Assembly (NCBI GenBank): GCA_012520845.1
Contig: JAAYNL010000015.1
Span: 1 to 64,000, forward strand
Reading direction: 5' to 3'
From: Thermoplasmatales archaeon
GTDB lineage: Archaea > Thermoplasmatota > Thermoplasmata > Methanomassiliicoccales > Methanomethylophilaceae
DNA: 64,000 bases
Within the stretch, counting starts at the first letter, position 1, and every line of letters starts with the position of its first letter. This document shows positions 7,845-61,723 of this stretch, one piece after another. The notes under the pieces are model-generated. The model was not told where the DNA came from. It did not search any database and worked only from the letters and a program-made list of their open reading frames with translations. The translations under genes were made by a program, and so were the position numbers.

Positions 7845-8063
7845 ATGGCGATGGATAAAATCGACATAGGGACTGCGAAGAGGATAGCGATCAACAAGGG
7901 CCTGACCCCCGGCAGGGTCAAGGGCACCGAGGGCGTCCAGTTCACCAAGGGCGACAACCCGAGGCTCGAGGTCATCGGTTGGCCGCTGTTCGAGGAGATT
8001 CTCCACAAGCGCGGTCTCGCCATCTACCAGAGCGGTGGATGGATGAAGATCATGAACGCGTAA
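7845..8063 (+). CDS. small conserved-looking protein of unknown function
   Basis: This 72-residue soluble protein starts MAMDKIDIGTAKRIAINKG and ends SGGWMKIMNA. It has no membrane segment, cysteine pair or known motif that I recognise. The composition is balanced and codon use matches the neighbours. It has a strong TATA box and its own ribosome-binding site, so it looks like a real, probably well-expressed monocistronic gene. The TTG at 7842 is an alternative start. A perfect hairpin follows at 8117-8131. No function is proposed. Confidence 0.7.
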   Translation: MAMDKIDIGTAKRIAINKGLTPGRVKGTEGVQFTKGDNPRLEVIGWPLFEEILHKRGLAIYQSGGWMKIMNA

Positions 8064-8116
8064 GCCCGGCAATTGCGCAGGGAAAACGTTCAAACCCCTT
8101 CCACCTTTCTTGAATA

Positions 8117-8131
8117 CGGCACCCGGTGCCG
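8117..8131 (+). terminator. hairpin after the small gene
   Basis: CGGCACC and GGTGCCG form a perfect 7-base inverted repeat separated by one base, followed about 15 bases later by GTTTTTA. It may end the small-gene transcript. The tRNA-Leu promoter (TTTTTATATCA near 8145-8155) lies immediately beyond. Termination itself is inferred. Confidence 0.4.
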
Positions 8132-8178
8132 CGATACCAGTGTTGTTTTTATATCACGATACTTTACGTTGGCCAAGT

Positions 8179-8266
8179 GCGGGGGTTACCGAGCCTGGCC
8201 AAAGGTGATAGATTCAGGGTCTATTCGTTTAGACGTTCGAGGGTTCAAATCCCTTCCCCCGCACCA
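8179..8266 (+). tRNA. tRNA-Leu (anticodon CAG), CCA encoded
   Basis: GCGGGGG (8179-8185) pairs with CCCCCGC (8256-8262). The anticodon stem ATAGA/TCTAT encloses TTCAGGG, giving anticodon CAG. The variable region is extended, as in leucine tRNAs, and the T arm contains GGGTTCAAATCCC. The discriminator A and CCA are encoded at 8263-8266. A TATA-like element lies about 25 bases upstream. The 3' part lies antisense to the end of the copA frame. Confidence 0.93.
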
Positions 8267-10487
8267 TCCCCCCTTCTTCTTTGAAATCCATGGCGCCCAG
8301 CCTGAGGGCGTTCGAGACAACGGACAGCGAGGATAGGGACATCGCCGCCGCCGCGACCACGGGGCTCAGAAGCGGGCCGCCGAAGAGATGGAGGATGCCG
8401 GCAGCCAGCGGTATGCACACCGTGTTGTAGATCAGTGCGAGGAACAGGTTCTGCTTGATGTTGCCCAAGGTCGCCCTGCCGATGCGCAGCGCCCTCGGCA
8501 CGCCGCCCAGGTCGCCGCCCACGACGACCACGTCGGCGGATTCCATCGCTATGTCGGTGCCCGTCGCCATCGCGATGCCCAGGTCCCCGGCGATCAGCGC
8601 CGGGGCGTCGTTTATCCCGTCGCCGACCATGGCGACCCTTTCGCCCCCGGCCTTGAGTTTCTCCACGACGGCGACCTTGTCCCCGGGCAGCGCTCCCGAC
8701 ACGTACTCGTCTATGCCGGCGGCGGCGGCCACCCTCGAGGCGGTGGCTTCCCCGTCGCCGGTTACCATCACGGTGCCCACGCCCATGCGGCGCAGTTCCG
8801 AAACCGCGCCGGCGCTGGACGGACGCAAGGAATCGGCCATGGCGAGCAAGCCCTCGGCGACGCCGTCGACGGCGACGTACACCACGATTTTGCCGGTTTC
8901 GGAAAGGGCGTTCCCGCTTCCGTCGAAGGCCGAGACGTCCACACCGCGGTCCTCAAGAAGCCCTTTCCTGCCCACGAGGACCTCCTTTCCGTCGACGGTG
9001 CAGGACACGCCGCTGCCGACGAGCGCCTGGAACCCGGCGGCCCGTGGGACGCCCACCCCGCGTTCCGAGGCGTGGGCCACGATCGCCCTGGCGAGCGGAT
9101 GTTCCGACGGGTTTTCCGCCGCCGCGGCGACGGCCAAAAGGTCGTCGGGATTGCCACGGGCGACGACGTCGGTGACGACCGGGACCCCCTCGGTGACCGT
9201 GCCGGTCTTGTCGAGGGCGACAACGGTTACCTCCCCCGCGGTCTGGAGGGCGGCGGCGTCCTTGAAGAGTATGCCGTTGTCCGCGCCCTGGGAGGTCCCC
9301 ATTATTATTGATAAGGGCGTGGCCAGCCCGAGGGCGCACGGGCACGCGATTACCAACACGGAGATGAGGACGGTCACGGCGAACCTGGCGTCCTTCCCGG
9401 CAAGCAACCATGCCGCGGCGGCGGCGACAGCGATCGCCATCACGGCTGGGACGAAGTGGCGCACCACCCGGTCCGCCATCCTCGCGATGGGCGCCTTCGT
9501 GCTTTGGGCCTCGTCCACCATCCCGATGATCTGGGACAATACCGTTTCGTCCTGCGGGCAGCGCACTTCCGCCTCCACGGACCCGTCGAGGTTGACCGTT
9601 CCCCTGTAGACCATGGAACCCACGGACTTGTCCACGGGCGCGCTTTCCCCGGTCAGCATGGATTCGTCGGCGGAGGTGAACCCGGAGAGGACCTCGCCGT
9701 CCGCCGGGAACCTTTCCCCCGGCCTGACGACGACGACGTCGCCGACGAGCAGCCCGTCCGCCGGCACGACGCGTTCCCCGCCGTCGACGAGCAGGGATGC
9801 GTTTTCCGGCGCCAGTTCCATCAATTTGCCTATTGCGTCCCGCACCCTCCCCTTGGACTTGGACTCCAGGAAATTGCCCAGGAGCACCAGCGTTATGATC
9901 ATGGACGCCGACTCGAAGTAAAGCAGGTTTGACGCGGAACCGTCCCCGAACAGGATGGAACAGGTGGCGTACAGGCTCGACGCGAGGGCGGCGGAGGTGC
10001 CCAGCGCGATCAGGGAATTCATGTCCGGATTCCCTCTGAGCAGGGACGGGAACCCATTGGTGTAGAAACCCCTGCCCGCGTACACGGACGGGAGGCACAG
10101 CAGCAGCTGCGCCACGGCCATGTTGGCGTCGTTTTCCAGGAACCCGGGCAGGGGGGCGCCGAATTTGCCGCCCATCGCCACGTAGAACAGCGGCACGGCG
10201 AAGACGACGGACAGGATCAGGTTGTTGCGCATTTTTGCCGACTCGAGCCTCTCCCTTTCCGCCTCCCGGTTCTTGTCGTCTGGGACCACGTCGTATCCGG
10301 ACGAGACGACGGCGGCGAATATCTTCTCGGGCCCAACCCCTTCCGGGTCGTACTCCACGGAGACCCTCCCCGTGGCCAGGTTGACGCTGACCGTCGAGAC
10401 GCCGGGGAGGGCCCCTATCGCCCGTTCCACGGCCGCGGAGCAGGCGGCGCAGGACATCCCGCCAACGTTGAACCTTATCTTGTTCAT
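8229..10487 (-). CDS. copA: CopA-type copper-transporting P1B ATPase
   Basis: This 752-residue P-type ATPase has one N-terminal heavy-metal domain (GGMSCAACS, cysteines near 13 and 16). It has the intramembrane CPC motif in [13 protein letters not shown], the phosphorylation site DKTGTVTEG and the hinge GDGINDAP. These residues fit Cu(I) export across the cytoplasmic membrane. ATG 10487 overlaps the stop of the upstream chaperone gene. The frame does not close before the tRNA-Leu gene: the last 12-13 codons and the TAA lie antisense to the tRNA, and the tail GFEPSNV is the typical translation of a T arm. The true C-terminus could have been extended by loss of an earlier stop. Confidence 0.93.
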
Positions 10488-13614: not shown

Positions 13615-15507
13615 ATGGGCGAGATGAATAACGTGTTCCCCTTTTCCGCCATCGTCGGCCAGGAGCTCCTGAAAAAGGCCCTGCTCCTCAACGCTGTCAA
13701 CCCGGACATAGGGGGGGTGCTCATAAGGGGCGACAGGGGGACGGCGAAATCCACCGCCGTGAGGTCGTTGGCGCAGCTGTTGCCGGAAAGGCCGGTTTCC
13801 GTCGGGTGCCCCTTCGGGTGCGCCTCCGATTCCGAAAGGAAGGACTGCCCCCACTGCAGGGGGCGCGGGATGAAGACCGCGCCCGCCCGGATGCGCGTGG
13901 TGGACCTGCCGGTGTCGGCGACGGAGGACAAGGTGGTCGGGACGCTGGACATAAGCAAGGCCATCAAGGAGGGCGAGAAGAGTTTCGATCCCGGCGTGCT
14001 CGCCGAGGCCAACGGGAACATACTGTACGTGGACGAGGTGAACCTGCTGAACGACCACGTCGTGGACCTGCTGCTGGACGCCGCCGCCATGGGGGTGAAC
14101 ATCGTCGAGAGGGAGGGGATTTCCTATTCCCACCCCTCGAGGTTCGTGCTCGTCGGCACCATGAACCCGGAGGAGGGGGAGCTCAGGCCGCAGCTCCTGG
14201 ACAGGTTCGGCCTCTGCGTCGACGTGACGGGCATCATGGACGAGGACGCCAGGATGGAGATCGCCAGGAGGCGGATAGAGTTCAACGCCGACCCCGCGGG
14301 GTTCCTCGGGGGATGGGAGTCCGCCGACGGTGAAATCGCGGATCGCGTCGTCAGGGCGCGGGAAGCGCTCAGGGACGTCGAGCTGTCCGAGGACATGCTC
14401 AGACGGATCGTCAGGATATGCATAGAGAACAACGTGGACGGCCACCGCGCCGACATAACGATGATCAACGCGTCCACGGCGATAGCCGCCCTGGACGGCA
14501 GGGGCGAGGTGACCGAGCAGGACGTCTTGGACGCGGCCGAGCTCGTCCTGCCCCACCGTTCCAAGGCCCCGCCCAAGCCCAAGCCGCCGAGCAGGGAGAG
14601 GGACAGGGACCGCAAGGACGACAGGGACAGGGATAAGGAGGAAAAGCGGGACCAAAGGGAGAACCCCCCTCCGCCCAAGGAGGACGAGGACAAAGGTTCC
14701 GGCGGCGACGGCACGACGGACATGCGCGCCACCGAGGAATTCCGGGTGAGGCGGGACGTCCTCAACGCCGACGTGCGCCTCGACGACATGCTGAGGGAGT
14801 CCTCGGGCAGGCGGAGCGAGACCGTTTCCTCCACGGGGAGGTACACGGCCCACAGGATACCGCGGGGCAAACCGACCAGCGTCGCGCTCGACGCGACGAT
14901 CAGGGCCGCCGCCGCGAGGTCCGCCGGGACGGGGTTCTCCGTGGAACCGGGGGACGTGCGGGAAAAGGTACGCACCAGGAAGGTCGGCAACCTCATCGTG
15001 TTCGCCGTCGACGCCAGCGGGAGCATGGGCGCCGAGAACAGGATGACGTTGGTGAAAGGCACAATCATGTCCCTGCTGACGGACGCCTACCAGAAGAGGG
15101 ACAAGGTCTGCCTGATAACGTTCAGGGGCAGCGACGCGGAGATGGTCCTGCCCCCCACGAACAACACGGAGCTCGCGAAGAGGCGCCTGGACGACGTGCC
15201 GGTGGGCGGCAAGACCCCGCTTGGCCCGGGCCTGGCCCTTTCGTACGAGACGATCAAGAAGGAGATGCTCAAGGACAGGGAAATCCGACCCGTCCTGGTG
15301 GTCGTGTCCGACGGCAGGGCGAACAGCGGCGCCGCCGACGACATAAAGGGGGAATTGGAGGCGGTTACCCGGGCCATAACGGGTGACGGGATACAGTGCC
15401 TGGTGATCGACTCGGAGTCCGGGTTCGTGAAATTGGGCCTGGCCAAGAAGCTCGCCGAGGAACTCGGCGCCAGGTGCATCGATTTGGAGAGTGTGAGGAA
15501 TGTCTGA
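13615..15507 (+). CDS. ChlI-ChlD-type AAA+/VWA chelatase motor subunit
   Basis: This 630-residue protein joins a complete ChlI-like AAA+ module to a ChlD-like VWA domain. It has Walker [10 protein letters not shown] (39-47), a cysteine cluster CPFGC and CPHC (about 65-81), and Walker [10 protein letters not shown] (137-145). A highly charged Pro/Arg/Asp/Lys linker spans about 318-368. A VWA domain with the MIDAS motif DASGS lies near 466. It should form the ATP-driven motor of a class I cobaltochelatase with CobN, whose ATG overlaps this stop by 8 bases. A second, split ChlI plus ChlD pair lies at 55-58 kb. The gene is probably leaderless. Confidence 0.88.
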
Positions 15508-18500
15508 GAAGAAACCGGTGATGACCTTCGTCATGTGGGACTCCTACGAGACGAAGCTTAGGGCGGTTGCCGAGGAAGAGGGCCTGGACATAAGGGTCTT
15601 CACGAAGCACAAGTTCGAGAACATGCGCGTACCCATCGAGGACGCCGTCGAATCCATCAGGGAATCCGACGTGACCGTGCTGTACAAGACGGGACAACCC
15701 TATTGGAGCGACCTTGTCCCCCGGGTGGAGGAGTTGATGGACCGCACAAAAATCCTTTCGTTCGGGTCGGACCCGCTGGATTTCGCCATGACTTCCGTCG
15801 AGCCCCGTCTCGCCATCGAATGCTACAAATATCTAATCAACGGGGGCGAGGAAAACACCCGGCGCATGGTCAGGTTCCTGATGGCAGAATGCCTGGGGAT
15901 GGAAGTTGAGTATCTGCCCCCGGAGGAAGTGCCGTGGCATGGGATATTCCACCCGGACGCCGAGGGGATTTTCACCGACACCAAGGACTATCTCGAATGG
16001 TACGATGCACGTGAAGGGGCCCCTTGGGTGGGGATAGTGGGCTCGAGATCGTCTTGGGTCAATGATGGGCTGACGGTCGAAACCGAGGTCATAAGGCAGT
16101 TCGAGAATCTCGGCGCCAACGTCATAACCGTGTTCACGAATTCCGTCAGGAACGAGGAGCGGGGCTCAATCAACATAGCGGACGCCGTGGAAAAATACCT
16201 GTTGGACGAGGATGGGAACCTAAGGGTATCCGCGTTGGTGAAGACGATAATGTTCGTCGTGGGGCGCACCGAGGCCCGTGCGAACAGGAAAGGCGTCCCG
16301 CCCTCCGGGGCCCAATTCTTCAAATCCCTCAATGTGCCGGTATTCCAACCGGTGGTTGCGTCCAACATGTCCAGGGAGAGGTTCCAGGAGGTCCCCGGCC
16401 TCACCTCCGACGTGTCCTGGTGCATAGCCCTGCCCGAATTCGAGGGCGTGATAGAACCGACCATGCTCGGTTTCTCGAGGGAGCGCGAGGACAGCGAGGC
16501 CTCCAAGACGGTGGACCCCGGCCGGGCCAAGCGCTTGGCGGAGAGGGTCCTCAACAGAATCGAGCTCGGAAGGAAACCGAACTCCGAGAAGAAGATCGCG
16601 TTCATCCTCAACAATTTCCCATGCGCGGGGGTCGAGGCGAACGTGGGGGGCGCATCCAATTTGGACACGCACCAGAGCATGGCAAACATCCTCGGGGCGC
16701 TCAATGCGGAGGGGTACGACGTGAGGGTTCCGGAGGACGGCAAGGCAATAATCACCGAAATCCTGGAGAAGAAGGCCATATCGGAGTTCAGGTGGACCAC
16801 CGCCGAGGCCATAAGCGATGCCGGCGGCGTGTTCCACTACATGACCGTGGGCGAATACATGGAATTCTTCGATACCCTCAGCGACAAGGTAAAGGCGGAC
16901 GTGATCGGCATGTGGGGCGAACCCCCCGGGAAGGGCATGGTCCTGGACGGCGACATCCTGATCACGGGGGTGTCCTTCGGCAACGCCATGATAGCCGTGC
17001 AGCCGAAGCGCGGATGCTTCGGGGCCCGTTGCGACGGGGAGGTCTGCAAAATCCTGCACGATCCCCTCTGTCCCCCGACCCACCAGTACCTGGCGACGTA
17101 CTTTTTCTATGAGGAGAAGTGGGGCGCGGACGCGATAATGCACGTGGGTACCCACGGCAACCTGGAGTTCCTTCCCGGCAAAACCGCCGGCATGACGGGC
17201 GACTGTTACCCCGATATCGGGATCGGCAGGGCGCCGCACATCTACATCTACAACGCGGACAACCCGCCCGAGGGAACGATAGCGAAGAGGCGTTCCCTGG
17301 CCACGTTGGTCAGCCACATGCAGACCGTGATGGCGTCCAGCGGCCTGTACGCCGAGCTGGAGGCCCTGGACAAGTTGCTGGAACAATACGACGGCGCCAA
17401 GACGGACCCCTCAAGGGAGCATCAGTTCAGGCACCTCCTCGAGGACGCCATCGCGGAGGCAAACCTTTCCCACATCGACGCGGGCGAGGACACCCCGACG
17501 GAGGAGGTGGTCAGGCTGTGCCACGAGGAACTGTCCAAGGTGCGCAATTCCCAGACCAACATCGGGATGCACATCTTCGGGGAATACCCGGAGGGTGACG
17601 ACAAGGCCGACATGGTCTATTCCATAATGAGGTACGATTCCGGGTCCGGCACCATAAGGGACGCCGTCGCCGAATCCTACGGACTCACCCTGAAGGACCT
17701 GTACGCGTCCCAGGGCTCGGACAATGCCCGGTTCGGCATGCCCAACGGCAAGGTCATTGAGTTCATCGGGGAGAAATCCAGGGAAGTGATCGGACACGTC
17801 CTTGACGGGATGCCCATGGAAAGGGCGGCGGCGGAGGCCGGCCTGCCGCCGGCGGCCGTCGAGCCCCTGCTAGAGTACGAGGGGACAATCCTGGACATAG
17901 GCGACAGGATAAGCGGTTCCAGGGAGATCGAGGCCCTGCTGAACGCATTGAACGGCGGGTACACCGAACCCGGCCCCTCGGGGCTGATTACCAGGGGCCG
18001 CCACGACGTGTTGCCCACTGGAAAGAACTTCTACTCCCTGGATCCGCACAGGGTGCCCACGGAACCCTCCTGGAGGGTCGGCGCCGTGCTTGCGGAGGAA
18101 CTGATCAAGAAGCACGTCGAGGAAACCGGGGCGCCGCCCGACAACGTCGCCTTCTTCTGGATGTCCAACGACATAATGGCCGCCGACGGGGAGGTCATGG
18201 CCCAGATAATGCATCTGATAGGCGTGAAGCCGGTATGGTCCCCCAACGGGCAGGTGCATTCCTACGAGGTCATACCCCTCGGGGAACTTGGCCGCCCCCG
18301 CGTCGACGTCACGGTGCGCACGTCGGGCATACTCCGGGACAATTTCATGAACTGCATCGACCTCATCGACAAGGCCGTCCGGGAGGTGGCCGCCCTCGAC
18401 GAGCCGACGGAAATGAATTTCATCAGGAAGCACGTCCAGAGGGACATCGCCGACGGGGTCTCCGAAGAGGATTCCACGGCCCGCCTGTTCTGCGCCCCGC

Positions 18501-19312
18501 CCGGGTCCTACGTCTCGGCGGTCAACCTGGCGGTCTACGCCAGCTCCTGGAAGACCAAGGACGATTTGGCCAAGATGTACATCGCCGCCAACGGCTACGC
18601 CTACGGCGGCGAGCGCAACGGCGCGCCCATGCACGAGCAGTTCGCCAGGGACCTCTCCACCGTCTCGGTGACGTATAACAAGATAGCGTCGGACGAGCGC
18701 GACCTCCTCGGCTGCTGCTGCTATTTCAGCAACCATGGCGGCCTCACCGCCGCTTCGGAGTACATGTCGGGTAGGGAGGTCAAGACCTACTACGGCGACA
18801 CGAGGGAGCCCAACGACATCAACGTGCACGACCTTGCCGACGAAATCAGACGCGTCGTCAGGACCAAACTTCTCAATCCCAAGTGGATAGAGGGGATGAA
18901 GGAGCACGGCTACAAGGGCGCCGCGGACATGATGAAAAGAATCGTACGCGTCTACGGGTTCGACGCGACCACGGACCAGGTGGACGACTGGATATTCGAC
19001 GACATAGCGAACACCTTCGTCAACGACGAGGAGATGAAGGAATTCTACAAGGAGAACAACCCGTACGCCCTGGAGGAGATAGCCAGACGGCTCCTGGAGG
19101 CGGAACAGAGGGGCATCTGGGACGCCGACGAGGAGACGCTGGAGGAGTTGCGCTCCAATTACGTGGACATCGAGTCATGGATGGAGGAATTGGCCGGCGA
19201 CGGCGAATACCAGGGTGGGAGCGTCGATATCCTGACGCCGGACGACGTGGCCGAGTGGAAGGCCATTCTCGAGCCGGTGCTGGAAAAAATCGGGAGACCG
19301 CCTCAGGTCTGA
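15500..19312 (+). CDS. cobN: CobN/BchH-family cobaltochelatase large subunit
   Basis: This 1270-residue protein is a CobN/BchH-type chelatase catalytic subunit and normal in length. The [14 protein letters not shown] segment near residue 547 contains conserved family histidines. Partner binding and cobalt insertion into a corrin ring precursor fit its translation coupling to the upstream AAA+/VWA subunit and the chelate transporter downstream. BchH-like substrate choices (Mg or Ni tetrapyrroles) cannot be excluded by reading alone. The corrinoid-dependent methyltransferase in the same window makes cobalt most likely. Confidence 0.9.
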
Positions 19313-55140: not shown

Positions 55141-56985
55141 TCACGGGGTTTGGGTGGAGCGGAGTTCGTCCAACAGGTAGTACGGGGCGCGGAGCGCCTC
55201 GGCCAGGTCCATGGCGAGGTTGCGGGAGTCGCCGTGCCTTACCGCCGTGTCGACGACTATCCAGCTGACTTCGCCGGCGGACACGCGTCTGGCTATCCCC
55301 ATCGATTCCTCGATGGGGTCGTCGCCCTCCACAATTGGCACGTTGCCGCCGCCGTCCGTCATGATTATCGCGAAAATCTTTTCGGAGGGGTGCTTCCTGG
55401 CGTAGTTGGAAAGGAATTCCCCCGTGTCCCGCAACGCCTCCGACAGCGGCGTCTGGCTCCCGACGGGTATGTCGTCCATCACCCCCTTGACCCTGCCCAC
55501 CGAGCGGGTGGGCGGCAAAACCATGGTCACGCCGTCCTTCCCGAAGGTGGTCACGGCGACCCTGTCCCTCCTGACGTAATGGTCGGCGACCATGGAGAGG
55601 ATGGCGGCCTTCACCGCCCTGATCCTGCTCCTGATGACCAACGACCCGCTGGTGTCCACCACGAACATGAACAGGCACGAGACCCGCCGGTCCCTCACCT
55701 TTTCCCGGACGTCCCTCATCTCGAGTATGATGCCGTCGTGGTCGCGGCCGCGGCGCCTCGCCCTTTGGTATGGGGCGGCGGCCCGGAACGTCGCGTCGAA
55801 GGCTATGTCCCTGGCGCCTTTCTTGGCGGGCCTGGACGATATGTAGCGACCGTCCCGGCCCACCTCGGCCATCGAACGCCTCCTGGCCCGGTTGTCGGGA
55901 ATCAGGCCGCGGAGGATGCTGTCCTCAACGAGGTCGACGGATTCGAACCTTTCCCCCACCTCCAGGACAAGGTCCTCTATCTCGACGCCGTCGTCCCCGG
56001 CCTCAGTGAACGCGGCGTCGCCGGGCGGCATCCCCGCGGCGGGACCCAACTCTTCCGCCGAGGCGGCCTTCTCCTCCCTGATGGTGCCGCTCATCGCCCT
56101 TTTTATGTGGGAATCGTGGTAGAAGTTGACCGTCTCCCTGTCTTCCTTGGTGGGGCGCCAGGGTCTTCTCGCCCTTCTGTGCCCCAGGCACAGGAACAGG
56201 GCCTCGGAGACGTCTTCGTCGGAAACCTCGTTCCTGCCGTCTAAGGCGGCTAGGGCCATGGCGGCGTTGATGGTGGAGAGCTCCCCCCGGTGTCCCTCGA
56301 CGCCGAAGGAGAGACAGGCTTCGACGACGGTATCGATCACCCGGTCCGGAACGGTTACCGAAGGGAGGATTCCCTTGGCGGCCTCGATGGTCCGGCGGAT
56401 GCCCGGGTCGTCCCCGACCCATGCGTCCGGGTCGAGATTGGCCTTGGCGACGTCCGCCCTGAAAGCGGGGTCCCGGGACCCCGCGACGACGACGGACATG
56501 TCGAAGAAGTCCGCCATGCCGGGGCCCAACGGGGTGCCGCCGAGGCTCATCGTCGCCACCACGGACGTGTCCACGGGGTACTCGGCGGAAACGCCGCCCC
56601 GTTCCACCCTGGCGACGCCGGAGGAGACGGCGGACATGAGGGCGTGGGCGAACTTCCTGTCCAGGAGGTTCACGTCGTCGACGCAGAGCAGCGTGCCGTT
56701 CGCCCTCGCCAGCAGGCCCTCCTCCAGTCTCGTCTCCCCGGTGAGGATCGCGTGTTCCAGGTCCACGCCGCCCATGACCTGGTCGTGGGACGCCCCCAGC
56801 GGGAGTATGGCCGGCGGGGCGGTCCCCGCGGCTGATGCCATGGACCTTGCCAAGGCGGTCTTCCCCACCCCCGGGGGGCCCCTTATCAGGACGCCCTTCA
56901 GGCGCGGGTTGACGAAAAGGCACGTCAGCGCCTTCTTGGCGGCGTCCAGGCCGATGATCGGCGGCCTCACAGGCCCGCCAGGCAT
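55141..56985 (-). CDS. ChlD-type AAA+/VWA protein (second set)
   Basis: This 614-residue protein has Walker A GPPGVGKT (36-43). Its Walker B CVDD (101-104) has the usual catalytic Glu replaced by Asp. An arginine-rich linker and a C-terminal VWA domain with MIDAS DTSGS near 443 follow. It pairs with the ChlI-type ATPase encoded just upstream (19-base overlap). Chelatase D subunits carry such a weakened AAA+ part, so the pair looks like a ChlI/ChlD motor. No CobN/BchH-type large subunit is beside it. It may share CobN with the 13.6 kb set, or act as a metalloenzyme activase (see findings). Confidence 0.85.
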   Translation of the reverse strand: MPGGPVRPPIIGLDAAKKALTCLFVNPRLKGVLIRGPPGVGKTALARSMASAAGTAPPAILPLGASHDQVMGGVDLEHAILTGETRLEEGLLARANGTLLCVDDVNLLDRKFAHALMSAVSSGVARVERGGVSAEYPVDTSVVATMSLGGTPLGPGMADFFDMSVVVAGSRDPAFRADVAKANLDPDAWVGDDPGIRRTIEAAKGILPSVTVPDRVIDTVVEACLSFGVEGHRGELSTINAAMALAALDGRNEVSDEDVSEALFLCLGHRRARRPWRPTKEDRETVNFYHDSHIKRAMSGTIREEKAASAEELGPAAGMPPGDAAFTEAGDDGVEIEDLVLEVGERFESVDLVEDSILRGLIPDNRARRRSMAEVGRDGRYISSRPAKKGARDIAFDATFRAAAPYQRARRRGRDHDGIILEMRDVREKVRDRRVSCLFMFVVDTSGSLVIRSRIRAVKAAILSMVADHYVRRDRVAVTTFGKDGVTMVLPPTRSVGRVKGVMDDIPVGSQTPLSEALRDTGEFLSNYARKHPSEKIFAIIMTDGGGNVPIVEGDDPIEESMGIARRVSAGEVSWIVVDTAVRHGDSRNLAMDLAEALRAPYYLLDELRSTQTP

Positions 56986-57989
56986 ACGTGGAGGTCCTCC
57001 TCCCTGTAGGTGGATTCCTCGAAGGGGCCCTTGGCGAGGCGGTGGGCGAGGACAAGGCCCGCTGTGGCGAGCAGGTCGTCCTTCGTGATTTCCGTCCTGC
57101 CCTCCAGGGCGGCGTTCGCCCTGGCAGCCCGTATCATCGCGAGGTCGGCCCTGTGGCCCTCTATCTTGAACCCGATCGCGGCCACGGCGGCCATGTGCAC
57201 GATTTTATCGTCCGGGACGATCGACGGCAGCAGCCCCCTGGCGGCGGCGACCCTTTCCCTGAGCCCGTCCGTTTCCACGGCCGCGTCCGCGATGTACCCC
57301 TCGGGATCGGCGTCGAAGGCCAGCCTCCTGCGTATGACCTCCGCCCGGACCCTCGGGTCCAGGTCGCCGGAGATGTCGACGGACAGGCCGAAACGGTCCA
57401 GCAGTTGGGGCCTGAGGGAACCCTCCTCCGGGTTCATCGTCCCCACGAGTATGAAACGGGACGGGTGCGAGAACGACACGCCCTCCCTTTCGACGTGGTT
57501 GACGCCCATCGCCGCGGAATCCAGGAGCAGATCGACGATGTGGTCGTCAAGCAGGTTCACCTCGTCGACGTAGAGCAGGTTGCCGTTGGCCTGCGCCAGG
57601 ATCCCGTTCTCGAACCTGCGTTCCCCGGATTTCAGAACGTGCTCTATGTCCAGGCTGCCGGAGATCCTGTCCTCGGTGGCGTTCAGCGGCAGCTCGACCA
57701 CCCTCACCCGCCTGGGCACGGGTACGATTTCCTTCGGGTCCCTTTCCCTGCATTCGGCGCACATCGACCTCCTGTCGCGGGGGTCGCATTGGAACGGGCA
57801 ACCCTTTACGGCCAAGGTTTCCGGCAGAATCTGCGCCAACGCCCTCACGGCGGTGGATTTGGCAGTGCCCTTCTCGCCCCTGACCAGGACGCCCCCTATC
57901 TTGGGGTCGACGACGTTCAGCAACAGGGCCCTCTTCATCGGTTCCTGCCCAACGATCCTAACGAAAGGAAACACCGTGTCGCCGCCCAT
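56967..57989 (-). CDS. ChlI-type AAA+ ATPase (second set)
   Basis: This 340-residue protein matches chelatase I subunits: Walker A GEKGTAKST (38-46), cysteines in CPFQC and CAEC (about 64-80), Walker [10 protein letters not shown], and sensor [13 protein letters not shown] with the arginine finger region LLDRFGL. ATG 57989 is preferred over GTG 58016: the TATA-like element at 58036-58050 places the transcript start at about the GTG, and a perfect hairpin occupies 58002-58017. The gene diverges from mttB and overlaps the ChlD-type gene. Confidence 0.88.
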   Translation of the reverse strand: MGGDTVFPFVRIVGQEPMKRALLLNVVDPKIGGVLVRGEKGTAKSTAVRALAQILPETLAVKGCPFQCDPRDRRSMCAECRERDPKEIVPVPRRVRVVELPLNATEDRISGSLDIEHVLKSGERRFENGILAQANGNLLYVDEVNLLDDHIVDLLLDSAAMGVNHVEREGVSFSHPSRFILVGTMNPEEGSLRPQLLDRFGLSVDISGDLDPRVRAEVIRRRLAFDADPEGYIADAAVETDGLRERVAAARGLLPSIVPDDKIVHMAAVAAIGFKIEGHRADLAMIRAARANAALEGRTEITKDDLLATAGLVLAHRLAKGPFEESTYREEDLHVCLAGL

Positions 57990-58001
57990 GAAAACGCCTT
58001 C

Positions 58002-58017
58002 CGTGCCGTCAGGCACG
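58002..58017 (-). promoter_or_regulatory. leader hairpin of the second ChlI gene
   Basis: CGTGCC and GGCACG form a perfect 6-base stem with a GTCA loop at the predicted 5' end of the chlI transcript. It may influence transcript stability or translation. It could also be a dyad bound by a protein. Confidence 0.4.
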
Positions 58018-58035
58018 TTTTTCGCATGGCGGGCG

Positions 58036-58138
58036 CGTTATTTAATGTTGATGAAACAATATTTTACAATGTTGTAACAATATAAATCGTGTTTACTTCA
58101 TCATTTATGTTGAGCAATCAATAAACCTAATATATTAC
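58036..58138. promoter_or_regulatory. divergent chlI/mttB promoter region with repeats
   Basis: The minus-strand TATA (read AACATTAAATAAC) is at 58036-58050. The mttB TATA-like CTAATATATTAC is at 58127-58138, predicting a start near 58160. Between them TTACAATGTTGTAA at 58064-58077 is a dyad with 6-base arms, and ACAAT occurs three times at 58056-58081. This layout suits a regulator that controls both genes; the regulator and ligand are unknown. The MarR protein encoded downstream is one candidate. Confidence 0.5.
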
Positions 58139-58160
58139 ATGAAGTTTCAACCGTTTAGCA

Positions 58161-58241
58161 ATGCCAAGCGCGTCCCCGTTTTCGTCGGAGGCCTTCTGCG
58201 CTCTGCCGCCGGCGCACGCGGGGCCGGGCTCGGCATGCTGA
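58161..58241 (+). CDS. possible leader peptide before mttB
   Basis: A 26-codon frame starts at ATG 58161, almost exactly where the mttB transcript should begin, and ends in TGA at 58239-58241. That is 13 bases before the mttB ATG. Its stop overlaps the AGAGAGGGA ribosome-binding stretch of mttB. As a leaderless upstream ORF it could couple or tune mttB translation. The peptide is Pro/Ala/Ser-rich with two cysteines and no known match. Confidence 0.35.
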
Positions 58242-58254
58242 GAGAGGGAACAGA

Positions 58255-59757
58255 ATGAGAAAGAACATGTACCCGGGAAGGGTAAAGATGAGCGGCGTCA
58301 AGCTCGAGTTGTTCACCATGGACGACCTCCGCGAGATTGACTACGCGACCAGGGACATCCTCGGCAACTACGGGGTCCAGGTCTCCTGCAAGGAGGGCCT
58401 CCAGCTGTTCGCCGACAACGGTTGCGACGTCAACTTCGAGACCCAGATGGTCAAGATTCCCAGCAAGGTGATCAACCAGGCTCTGGCGAACGCCCCCAAG
58501 AAGTTCTACCTTTACGGTAGGGACGAGAAACACACCATCGAGCAGATGCACAACGGCAGGGTCCACTTCACGTGCTTCGGCACCGGCATCCAGATGTGCG
58601 ACTACCTCGGCAACGGCAAGTACCACACCAGGGACTCCACCGGGAAGGATCTGGCCAACTGCGCCAAGATCGTCGACTGGGCCGAGAACATCAGCTACTT
58701 CTCCCTGGCGGTCTCCGCGAGGGAATACGCCGGCGTGGGCGCCACCGACGTGCACGAGATGGTCATCTCGATGAACAACACGACCAAGCACTTCAACCAC
58801 ATCGACCCGGTGGCCGAGAACGTAGACTACTACTTCGAGATCCTGAAGGCGTGCTACGGCGGCGACGAGGAACTGGCCCGCAACAGGCCCCTCATGTCCA
58901 TGCTGGTGTGCCCCACCAGCCCGCTGGAGATAGGCTACAACGCGTCCCAGGTCATCATGAAGGGCGCCAGGTACGGCATACCCGTCAACATCCTCAGCAT
59001 GGCCATGGCCGGCGGTTCCTCGCCTGTCCACCTGGCCGGCACGCTGGTCACCCACAACGCGGAAATCCTGGCGGGCCTCGTGCTCGCCCAGCTCGCCAAC
59101 CCCGGCGCGAAGGTCTTCTACGGAAGCTCCACCACCGCGTTCGACCTCATGAAGGGCACCGCCCCCGTCGGGTCCCCCGAACTGGCGCTCATCAGCGCCT
59201 CCGTTGTCAAACTCGGGCAGTACTACGGTCTGCCCGTTTACGTCGCCGGCATGTAGACCGACGCCAAGATACCCGACGCCCAGGCAGCGCACGAGAAGAC
59301 GCTCACGTCCCTTCTCCCCGCGATGTCCGGCGCGAACACCATCTACGGTGCGGGTATGGTTGAGCTTGGACAAACGTTCTCGATGGAACAACTGGTGATA
59401 GACAACGAGATAATCGGGATGAACTTCAAGGTGATGGAGGGGGTCCCCGTAACCGACGAGACCCTCGGCGTCGAGGCCATCAAGGAAATCGGCGTGGGCC
59501 GCGACTTCATCGGCCACCCGTCCACGATGGCGAACTTCGAGAACGCCTCGAACCCCACCCTGCTCGACCGCTCGATGCTCGGTGAGTGGATTGCGGCCGG
59601 CAGCACGAGCGCGACCGAGAGGGCCCACGAGGTCGTCAAGGACGTGCTCGCCAACCACAAGGTCGAGCCGCTGCCCGAAGACGTGATGAAGAACATCAAG
59701 AAGATCCTCAAGAAGGCCGACGCGGACTTCGTCAAGAGGAGAGAAGGAGGAGAATGA
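58255..59757 (+). CDS. mttB: trimethylamine:corrinoid methyltransferase MttB, pyrrolysine-containing
   Basis: The full product is 500 residues, read through an in-frame TAG at 59254-59256. Pyrrolysine would be residue 334, the position known in Methanosarcina MttB, in the context YVAG, M, then the amber codon. Recognisable segments include [41 protein letters not shown] and [10 protein letters not shown]. The enzyme moves a methyl group from trimethylamine to the corrinoid of MttC, encoded with a 4-base overlap. The real stop is TGA at 59755-59757. Pyrrolysine synthesis and tRNA genes (pyl) are not in this window. Confidence 0.96.
59254..59256 (+). other. in-frame amber codon read as pyrrolysine
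   Basis: TAG at codon 334 of mttB is followed by a further 166 codons that match the C-terminal part of the family (for example [15 protein letters not shown] and [15 protein letters not shown]). This is established behaviour for MttB in pyrrolysine-using archaea. Confidence 0.95.
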
Positions 59758-59759
59758 AA

Positions 59760-60425
59760 ATGGGAAAGCAGAATGAACTGAACGAGAGGGCCAAGAAGGC
59801 CGTTCTCGCGTACAACATAAACGACGCCAAGGCCATAGCCGCCGAGGCCATAGCCGACAAGGACGTCGACCTGATCGAACTGATCAACGAGGGGTTCACC
59901 GCCGGCATCAACGAGGTGGGGGTGCTCTTCGAGCAGAAGAAGCTCTTCCTGCCCCACATCATGGCCGCGGCCGGCGCCCTTTCCGCCGGGATGGATCCCC
60001 TTGTCCCGGAGATCGAGAAGCGCGGCGGCGGCATGGGCGAGGGCCTGGGCAACGTCGTCATCTGCACGATCCAGGATGACATCCACTCGATCGGCAAGGA
60101 CATCGTGGCCATCATGCTGAAGGTCGCGGGCTTCAACGTCTTCAACATAGGCAGGGACGTGCCCCTCAAGGACATCGTCGAGGCCTGCAAGAAGCACAAG
60201 GCGAGGTTTGTCGGCACTTCTGCCCTGATGACCTCCACGATGGTCCACCAGAAGACGTTCGAGGAGATGATGGCGAAGGAAGGCCTCAAGGGCAAGGTCC
60301 TCACCAACGTCGGCGGCGCGCCGGTCACCCAGCAGTGGTCCGACGAAATCGGCGCCGACATCTACTCCGAGTCCGCCGGCGACGCGGTTGCCAAGTTCAC
60401 CGCCATCGTCAAGGACTCCGTCTGA
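59760..60425 (+). CDS. mttC: trimethylamine corrinoid protein MttC
   Basis: This 221-residue protein has an N-terminal helical cap (NELNERAKKAVLAYN, FEQKKLFLPHIMAAAGALSAG). A Rossmann B12-binding domain with the base-off motif DxHxxG follows (Asp107, His109, Gly112 in DDIHSIGKD). It accepts the methyl group from MttB and passes it on to a methylcobamide:CoM methyltransferase, not encoded here. AAGGAGG at 59744-59750 lies 9 bases before ATG 59760 and only 3 before ATG 59754, so 59760 is preferred. A strong terminator follows. Confidence 0.93.
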   Translation: MGKQNELNERAKKAVLAYNINDAKAIAAEAIADKDVDLIELINEGFTAGINEVGVLFEQKKLFLPHIMAAAGALSAGMDPLVPEIEKRGGGMGEGLGNVVICTIQDDIHSIGKDIVAIMLKVAGFNVFNIGRDVPLKDIVEACKKHKARFVGTSALMTSTMVHQKTFEEMMAKEGLKGKVLTNVGGAPVTQQWSDEIGADIYSESAGDAVAKFTAIVKDSV

Positions 60426-60477: not shown

Positions 60478-60530
60478 CACAAACCGGTGACCAAAGGTTA
60501 TTTTACCCTTCCGCGGCTTGCGGGGACGTG

Positions 60531-61088
60531 ATGGAAGAGGAAGACACGTACTGGAACTCGTTCCTCCCCGCCTTCTTCGACAGGATGAGTTTCCAGATGC
60601 GGAAGAACATGACGGAGTTCATTTCCCCGTACGGACTGACAAGTTCCCACGCGGTCTACCTCATCGCCCTTCACCTGGAGGACGGGCAGACGATGGTGAG
60701 CCTGTCCAACTTCCTGGACCTGGACACCGCCAACACCAACAGGGTAATCAAGGTACTCCGGGAGAAAGGCTTCGTCCGGGACGACAGGGAGACGCCCAGG
60801 AGCAAGAAGTTCTCCATATTCCTCACCGAGGAGGGGCGGGGGCTCGCAGCCTCCCTCATGGAGCACGTCACCGCCCTGAACAACAGCTATTTCGAGGGGA
60901 TCCCCAGGGAGGACATCCTCCACATGAGGAACACCCTGCTGCGCGTGGTGAGGAACATGGACCTGGACATCGACAGGTACATGGGATCCAAGCACGAGGA
61001 CCCGTTCTACACCCACCTGCACATCGTCCCCCTAGACGGGGACTATCCGACGGAGCCGAGGCGCCTCAAAAACGGGGAAAGGGACTGA
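60531..61088 (+). CDS. MarR-family transcriptional regulator
   Basis: This 185-residue protein has a MarR winged helix: TMVSLSNFLDLDTANTNRVIKVLREKGFVRDD, with wing residues ETPRSKKFSIFLTEEGR, flanked by dimerisation helices. It follows mttBC in the same direction but after a strong terminator, with a TATA-like GTTATTTTACC near 60496-60506. It may regulate mttBC or the chlI/chlD pair across the operon; that is a guess from position. ATG 60531 is used instead of GTG 60528. Confidence 0.88.
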   Translation: MEEEDTYWNSFLPAFFDRMSFQMRKNMTEFISPYGLTSSHAVYLIALHLEDGQTMVSLSNFLDLDTANTNRVIKVLREKGFVRDDRETPRSKKFSIFLTEEGRGLAASLMEHVTALNNSYFEGIPREDILHMRNTLLRVVRNMDLDIDRYMGSKHEDPFYTHLHIVPLDGDYPTEPRRLKNGERD

Positions 61089-61168
61089 CCCGGGCCCCGG
61101 CGCCGGTTTCCGTAATATTGCCGTCAGTTGCGATATTATAATAAATTGAGTAGTCATCATTGCCCGAT

Positions 61169-61723
61169 ATGAGCAGGGTAGTCGCCATTTTGTCAAGCCC
61201 GAGGCGCGACGGCAATTCCAACGCGATAGCCAGGGCGGTGATGGACGGGGCCATGGGGCTTTCCACCAACGTCATAGGGCTGTACCGGCTTGGCACGTTT
61301 CGAAACATCCGCGGATGCACCGCCTGCGAGGAATGTCGGGAAACCGGTGTCTGCCACCTGGACGACGACATAGCCCCCCTGCTCTCGGACATAAAGGAGT
61401 CGAGTGCCGTCATAGTCGCCACCCCGCTCTACTTCAGCGGCCCCTCCGCGCAGTACAAGGCGCTAGAGGACAGGATGCGCTCGTTCTACGGCCCGGACGG
61501 GAAACCGAACATCCCGCCCGGGAAAAAGGCAGTAATCCTGGTCACCTGCATGGACGACACGGACGGGGCGGGGCAGCTGGCCTCGAACCTCGCGCGGTTC
61601 TATTCCAACCTCGGTTTCGAGATCCTCGGGAAAATCGTTTACGCATCCGGCGGACGGGAAACCGTGGATGCCGAAACGTTGGCGGAGGCGAAACGCCTGG
61701 GTTCGCTGTTGCGGAACAACTGA
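61169..61723 (+). CDS. iron-sulfur flavoprotein-like NAD(P)H:FMN reductase
   Basis: This 184-residue flavodoxin-fold protein has the FMN phosphate loop SSPRRDGNSNAI near 9-20, and PLYFSGPSAQYKALEDR. A compact cysteine motif C-x2-C-x2-C-x5-C (Cys50, 53, 56, 62) fits a [4Fe-4S] cluster as in Isf proteins of methanogens. It may serve electron transfer or oxygen protection, for example in reductive activation of corrinoid proteins, but no partner is shown. ATG 61169 is chosen over TTG 61160, given the TATA-like ATTATAATAAA at 61134-61144. Confidence 0.8.
   Translation: MSRVVAILSSPRRDGNSNAIARAVMDGAMGLSTNVIGLYRLGTFRNIRGCTACEECRETGVCHLDDDIAPLLSDIKESSAVIVATPLYFSGPSAQYKALEDRMRSFYGPDGKPNIPPGKKAVILVTCMDDTDGAGQLASNLARFYSNLGFEILGKIVYASGGRETVDAETLAEAKRLGSLLRNN

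Follow-up and report, generated by a model that had tools for sequence, protein, structure and literature searches.

What does a chelatase-type motor do when it lies beside a methyltransferase gene? ChlI/ChlD-type proteins form two-part ATP motors that usually aid the entry of metal into the precursors of vitamin B12 and chlorophyll. In the stretch of DNA analysed here (64,000 nucleotides, called the window), such a pair is found at 55-58 kb, facing the gene for a trimethylamine (TMA) methyltransferase. The window lies on contig C7 of the 1.38-Mb genome (94% complete) of a Methanomethylophilaceae gut methanogen. The closest named relatives of its ChlD are found in Methanomethylophilaceae and in related archaeal bins; two bear the label roe deer rumen or omasum.

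The pair and the chelatase sets of its genome

The ChlD-type AAA+/VWA protein (614 aa) is encoded at 55141-56985 on the minus strand and contains the domains AAA_5, AAA_lid_2, and VWA_2. The ChlI-type AAA+ ATPase (349 aa; AAA_5, Mg_chelatase, and AAA_lid_2) is encoded at 56967-58016 on the same strand. The chlI reading frame overlaps the start of chlD by 19 bases, which makes a two-gene operon likely.

On the plus strand, mttB (58255-59757) encodes the pyrrolysine trimethylamine:corrinoid methyltransferase, matching TIGR02369 with 700 bits against a cut-off of 525. Its single in-frame TAG, codon 334 (59254-59256), is read as pyrrolysine. It is followed by an mttC-like gene for a corrinoid (B12-binding) protein at about 59802-60425 (+), whose start was placed approximately by homology in a frame open from 59586, by a MarR-family regulator at 60528-61088 (+), and by an ORF at 61160-61723 (+) that is NADPH/FMN-reductase-like by resemblance only. 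The reading frames, domains, and orientation thus agree with a first-pass annotation of this DNA, which had described the pair as divergent from the trimethylamine methyltransferase genes.

Together, the two proteins carry the hallmarks of the ChlI/ChlD chelatase motor: AAA+ and AAA+/VWA domains, the Walker A/B motifs, an arginine finger, and a MIDAS. In ChlD these include Walker A GPPGVGKT, Walker B DD (103-104), and MIDAS DxSxS (444-448), T512, and D544. ChlI has invariant Walker A and Walker B motifs, Arg208/Arg289, and four conserved cysteines (73, 77, 86, 89). The top NCBIfam models for the pair are chelatase models (TIGR02442, TIGR02030, TIGR02031), all scoring under their curated cut-offs. 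The closest solved structures are ChlI/BchI (6L8D, 8OSF, 1G8P) and the BchD VWA domain (2X31), not MoxR proteins. An AlphaFold model of ChlD (mean pLDDT 73) shows separate AAA and VWA domains joined by a low-confidence linker, and does not inform on the target.

The same window also holds a complete cobaltochelatase set at 13.6 kb, as had been claimed. A fused ChlI-ChlD with a Pro/acidic-rich linker (13615-15507, +) adjoins a CobN gene (15500-19312, +; PF02514, 1203 bits), and the tree described below places its ChlI part among the CobN-linked ChlI proteins. This CobN is one of four in the genome, the other three lying outside the window, and each has a ChlI/ChlD set close by. The 55-58 kb pair is the only ChlI/ChlD set of the genome with no CobN nearby. 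The reported lack of a chelatase large subunit at the pair is genuine; each of the four CobN genes has another set of its own.

The CobN sets are located at C7:15.8k, C8:50k, C11:50k, and C11:108k (L009-L015), all within the 1.38-Mb genome. FecCD/BtuD-type ABC transporter genes adjoin the C8 set and the first C11 set, and also lie downstream of the window's CobN set. This arrangement hints that metallo-tetrapyrroles may be taken up or de-chelated, perhaps as by HmuS.

One explanation is that the pair supplies CobN with an additional ATPase motor and belongs to the TMA regulon since growth on TMA needs more cobamide. The nearest described models are indeed chelatase subunits and the host has four CobN genes, but each of these is already supplied with a ChlI/ChlD set. 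The phylogeny also speaks against an extra CobN motor. When ChlI+ChlD of 66 loci are placed in one tree, the 20 pairs that have a CobN no more than 10 kb away all fall into a single clade (SH-aLRT 100), and the window pair is grouped with mttB-divergent loci with a support of 100; single-gene trees agree with the split. These trees, which the first-pass annotation had suggested for both AAA+/VWA sets, were quick ones built without bootstrap, and a few rows are long-branched; they place the CobN-linked and the window pairs in separate clades. As far as the contigs reach, none of the 46 pairs outside the CobN-linked clade has a CobN within 10 kb.

The two classes differ in their linkers as well. 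The linker of CobN-linked ChlD proteins is acidic and rich in proline (median 12.6%, range 7.2-20.8), whereas the non-CobN class has a median of 3.8% (1.8-8.6; P=4e-10). The window ChlD, with 5.7%, lacks the Pro-rich acidic linker, a further point against service to CobN. The classes are also set apart by a few residues close to the MIDAS along the sequence (S436/G, F439/I, and T480/A). The linker motif SHxKRxIH was tried as a clade marker and dropped, being patchy within classes. Since the Walker A/B, arginine finger, and MIDAS residues are kept in all 46 non-CobN pairs, these are motors and not relics.

Neighbourhoods of related pairs and the shared spacer

Neighbourhoods of ChlI were collected from 100 family genomes as well as from further families within the order, and annotated by reference proteins named via Pfam and NCBIfam. 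Same-clade pairs are divergent from mttB in five other genomes. In four of them (L054, L068, L075, L079) chlD-chlI is divergent from mttB-mttC, with marR and the reductase-like gene following where the contig is long enough; in the fifth, L106 (= L072), the arrangement is the same and mttB is cut at the contig end. The arrangement recurs in another genus (L101-L104). The MarR gene is syntenic with mttBC in L054, L075, L079, and L101-L104, and the reductase-like ORF follows mttB-mttC-marR in L054, L075, L079, and L101-L103. L101, L102, and L103 have chlD in two tandem copies after chlI, next to mttB.

Sister clades are found in mtb/mtt/ramA or pyl clusters. Other CobN-less pairs lie in clusters with some or all of mtbB, mttB, mttC, ramA, EamA/SMR transporters, and amine-type permeases (L046, L048, L050, L051, L055, L057, L064, L071). 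The L047 pair is directly downstream of pylSBCD-ramA, L049 is similar, and in genus g12 pairs stand at the end of pyl islands (L125, L126, L127, L129). Altogether, methylamine or pyl contexts, which also include L090 and L096, occur in five genera besides the window's, and ramA neighbours the pair in L047, L048, L050, and L051. Homologues are thus not consistently placed beside CobN and away from methylamine genes, an outcome that would have contradicted the first-pass annotation; the CobN-adjacent pairs are a clade of their own.

The linkage can be put into numbers. Of the 46 non-CobN pairs, 24 have MttB, MtbB, RamA, or Pyl genes no more than 10 kb away; none of the 20 CobN-linked pairs does (Fisher P=1.5e-5, relatedness ignored). 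Several of the 22 non-CobN loci that have neither neighbour are truncated by the ends of their contigs. Conversely, a ChlI is found within 10 kb of 16 of the 52 strong MttB loci, against about 2 expected from a gene-location null that assumes three pairs per 1.5 Mb. Positional linkage of the pair to methylamine genes is not universal. A single-protein scan of named genomes found no relatives; an alignment scan returned 13 loci, six of Methanomethylophilaceae type and seven bacterial, and all seven bacterial ones adjoin CobN.

Some related pairs have other surroundings. At L058 and L059 the synteny of the window clade is retained (HMGR downstream, and marR beside L058) and the pair is kept, with mttB gone from the site. 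The non-CobN-clade pairs L067, L077, and L085 lie near genes that resemble components of CbiM/CbiQ-type cobalt transporters. Another sister group, in genera g4, g8, and g11, stands alone. The stand-alone pairs L086, L087, L089, and L094 have a conserved small membrane protein (about 190 aa) in their vicinity, in genomes without CobN (G003, G016, G026, G057). Given the stand-alone pairs and those by cobalt-transporter-like genes, the wider clade does not serve TMA only.

These pairs bear on two explanations. The transporter-like genes beside L067, L077, and L085 lend something to an extra CobN motor. They also suggest that the pair could act on another tetrapyrrole or metal step, for instance with cobalt or nickel, using a large subunit unrelated to CobN, the link to mttB being one of co-regulation only. 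The stand-alone pairs in CobN-less genomes fit such a step, but the strong co-occurrence with MttB documented in the next section does not.

A third alternative is that the pair aids an amine transporter or pyrrolysine synthesis, not the methyltransferase. A permease adjoins the pair in L054, L068, L075, L079, and L048, the pylSBCD-ramA operon is upstream in L047, and the pair is absent from every PylB-negative genome in the sample below. However, the neighbourhood of the window pair contains no permease, and the pyl genes of its genome are on contig C16, none of them beside the pair. The pair is also missing from six Pyl-positive genomes, and four of these have no MttB. A transporter or Pyl role is thus judged very improbable.

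The 238-bp spacer shared by chlI and mttB (58017-58254) is AT-rich for the genome (46% GC). It contains three imperfect 20-nt repeats, which carry a conserved operator-like motif. The motif is an inverted repeat, ATGTTGAGCAATCAAT (58107-58122; pattern ATGWTGANNNNTCAAT), that is conserved in same-clade spacers. A second copy, ATGTTGATGAAACAAT (58045-58060), has one mismatch, and a further exact copy on the minus strand, ATGATGACTACTCAAT (61145-61160), lies in front of the reductase-like gene. The spacer also holds a perfect inverted repeat, TTACAA-TG-TTGTAA (58064-58077), which is unique in the genome.

The pattern ATGWTGANNNNTCAAT is common to all six same-clade chlI-mttB spacers (window, L054, L068, L075, L079, L106), five of them confirmed by whole-genome search. 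With at most one mismatch, nine such sites occur in ten spacers against about 0.15 expected, a count that is descriptive because the motif was picked after viewing these spacers. The independent part is its rarity elsewhere, with 0-3 occurrences per genome and none of a reversed control pattern in seven genomes. No site of this type is present in the spacers of the other genus (L101, L102, L104) or at L058, where mttB is missing. The MarR protein is a candidate reader of the repeat. The shared operator supports joint regulation of chlID and mttB, as the first-pass annotation had supposed from the repeat-rich promoter region.

Occurrence of the pair across genomes

The phyletic profile covers 45 genomes of the family with a completeness of 90% or more and a contamination of 5% or less. 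Pairs were assigned to the non-CobN type by the ChlI+ChlD tree or by best ChlD match, and G025 was classed via its near-identical relative G042. The non-CobN pair is present in 28 of 30 genomes with pyrrolysine-type MttB and in 1 of 15 without (P=1e-8, relatedness ignored), three of the 30 (G039, G054, G089) being counted on weaker or partial MttB matches. Genus g3 alone shows the same pattern, with 11/12 against 0/5. The P values of profile and linkage overstate independence because the genomes are related.

Presence of CobN shows no such association: the pair occurs in 24 of 36 genomes with CobN and in 5 of 9 without (P=0.70). Five of the 45 genomes have the pair and no CobN at all (G003, G016, G021, G026, G031). 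In G031, which is 98% complete in 5 contigs, one pair adjoins an amine-type permease and mtbB. Taken with the separate clades and the missing linker, this makes an extra CobN motor unlikely.

The profile can also be compared with other partners. The pair is found in 29 of 35 genomes with PylB and in none of the 10 without. In G067 and G088, MtbB is present without a strong MttB, and the pair is missing; the window genome (G000) has MttB but no MtbB. The profile thus points to TMA and not to methylamines in general. As the tracked trait, general use of pyrrolysine or dimethylamine fitted more poorly than MttB. RamA was rejected, as it is present in all 45 genomes, with or without the pair. With the corrinoid activase RamA in every genome, tracking of MttB is not what one would expect of a general role in cobalt or nickel handling, and action on another metal step is unlikely.

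Three other genomes with pyrrolysine MttB, G070, G049, and G093, resemble the window genome in lacking MtbB, and all four are possibly trimethylamine specialists, to judge from gene content.

There are exceptions to the profile. G003 has the pair, Pyl, and RamA without MttB, and G036 has MttB without the non-CobN pair. The complete genome G015 has MttB and no ChlI/ChlD pair, so the pair is not strictly needed. Near its mttB are two long ORFs with DTGGTYTD motifs, L184:4083-6083(-) and 7977-10085(-); these ORFs, with the motif DTGGTYTDAVIMDLD, possibly belong to another type of ATPase.

A proposed role and its relation to known systems

Because this branch of pairs comes and goes with MttB and not with the CobN chelatase across the 45 genomes, it probably services TMA methanogenesis instead. 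We consider it probable that a ChlI/ChlD motor has been re-targeted from CobN to the TMA methyltransferase/corrinoid system, acting as an activase of the TMA system independently of CobN. Slightly favoured is the narrower reading of a dedicated AAA+/VWA activase for pyrrolysine-dependent MttB, with the VWA subunit re-targeted from CobN to MttB/MttC. The first-pass annotation had proposed service to the corrinoid methyltransferase system in place of a chelatase. The tree, the linkage, the co-occurrence with MttB, and the CobN-less genomes largely support that proposal, the target itself being presumptive.

In the mechanism envisaged, ChlI would form the ATPase ring and ChlD would dock on it. 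The VWA/MIDAS site of ChlD would grip MttB or MttC in the place that CobN takes in a chelatase. Remodelling driven by ATP could then open the MttB-MttC complex, or an apo or inactive corrinoid protein, and let corrinoid be loaded, exchanged, or reactivated jointly with the separate activase RamA. The grip and the remodelling are suggested because the NorQD ring twists a MIDAS-bearing partner that acts on a metalloenzyme. The pair may be an activase, a corrinoid loader, or a metal-insertion chaperone; by analogy, corrinoid loading or reactivation is tentatively put forward as its most likely step. RamA activates and reduces MttC in vitro without such a motor (PMC9842639) and is universal in the sample; in the TMA system the motor would therefore supplement RamA, not replace it.

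If this role is correct, gut methanogens that make methane from TMA employ an ATP-driven helper in addition to RamA, and ChlI/ChlD without a large subunit gains its first concrete partner. The whole clade of CobN-less ChlI/ChlD pairs would likewise gain a predicted, testable partner system. No report of a linkage between chlI/chlD and TMA genes was found in the open-licence literature.

Chelatase motors. The window pair shares domain architecture and catalytic residues with ChlI/ChlD (BchI/BchD) and with the archaeal CobN-associated motor. Unlike the latter, it has no CobN or ChlH neighbour and hence no large-subunit partner of the CobN-type cobaltochelatase, belongs to a separate clade, has a low-Pro linker, and tracks MttB.

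MoxR-type motors. NorQ/NorD and CbbQ/CbbO, MoxR AAA+ proteins with a VWA partner, likewise set an AAA+ ring and a VWA/MIDAS adaptor beside a specific metalloenzyme, and NorQD inserts metal by ATP-driven twisting of its VWA protein (PMC13036017). The pair has the corresponding features, with the MIDAS intact in 46/46, mttB as neighbour, and co-occurrence with MttB, the presumed target. However, no MoxR (AAA_3) Pfam match was found in the pair; its AAA protein matches Mg_chelatase/ChlI, and its ChlD has an AAA domain of its own. The parallel drawn earlier with CbbQ/CbbO, NorQ/NorD, and MoxR/VWA therefore stands as a functional comparison and fails as a family assignment, the pair being of ChlI/ChlD type.

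Corrinoid activases. RamA/RACo activases of the ASKHA type are also ATP-dependent partners of corrinoid methyltransferases, and ramA neighbours some of the pairs. The pair differs in having another fold, no Fe-S cluster, and no RACo/ASKHA domain.

ChlI/ChlD without a large subunit. Genomes with chlI/chlD and without chlH/cobN have been reported, with the function unexplored (PMC9227772). To these, the present locus adds a concrete linkage and a phyletic partner, MttB.
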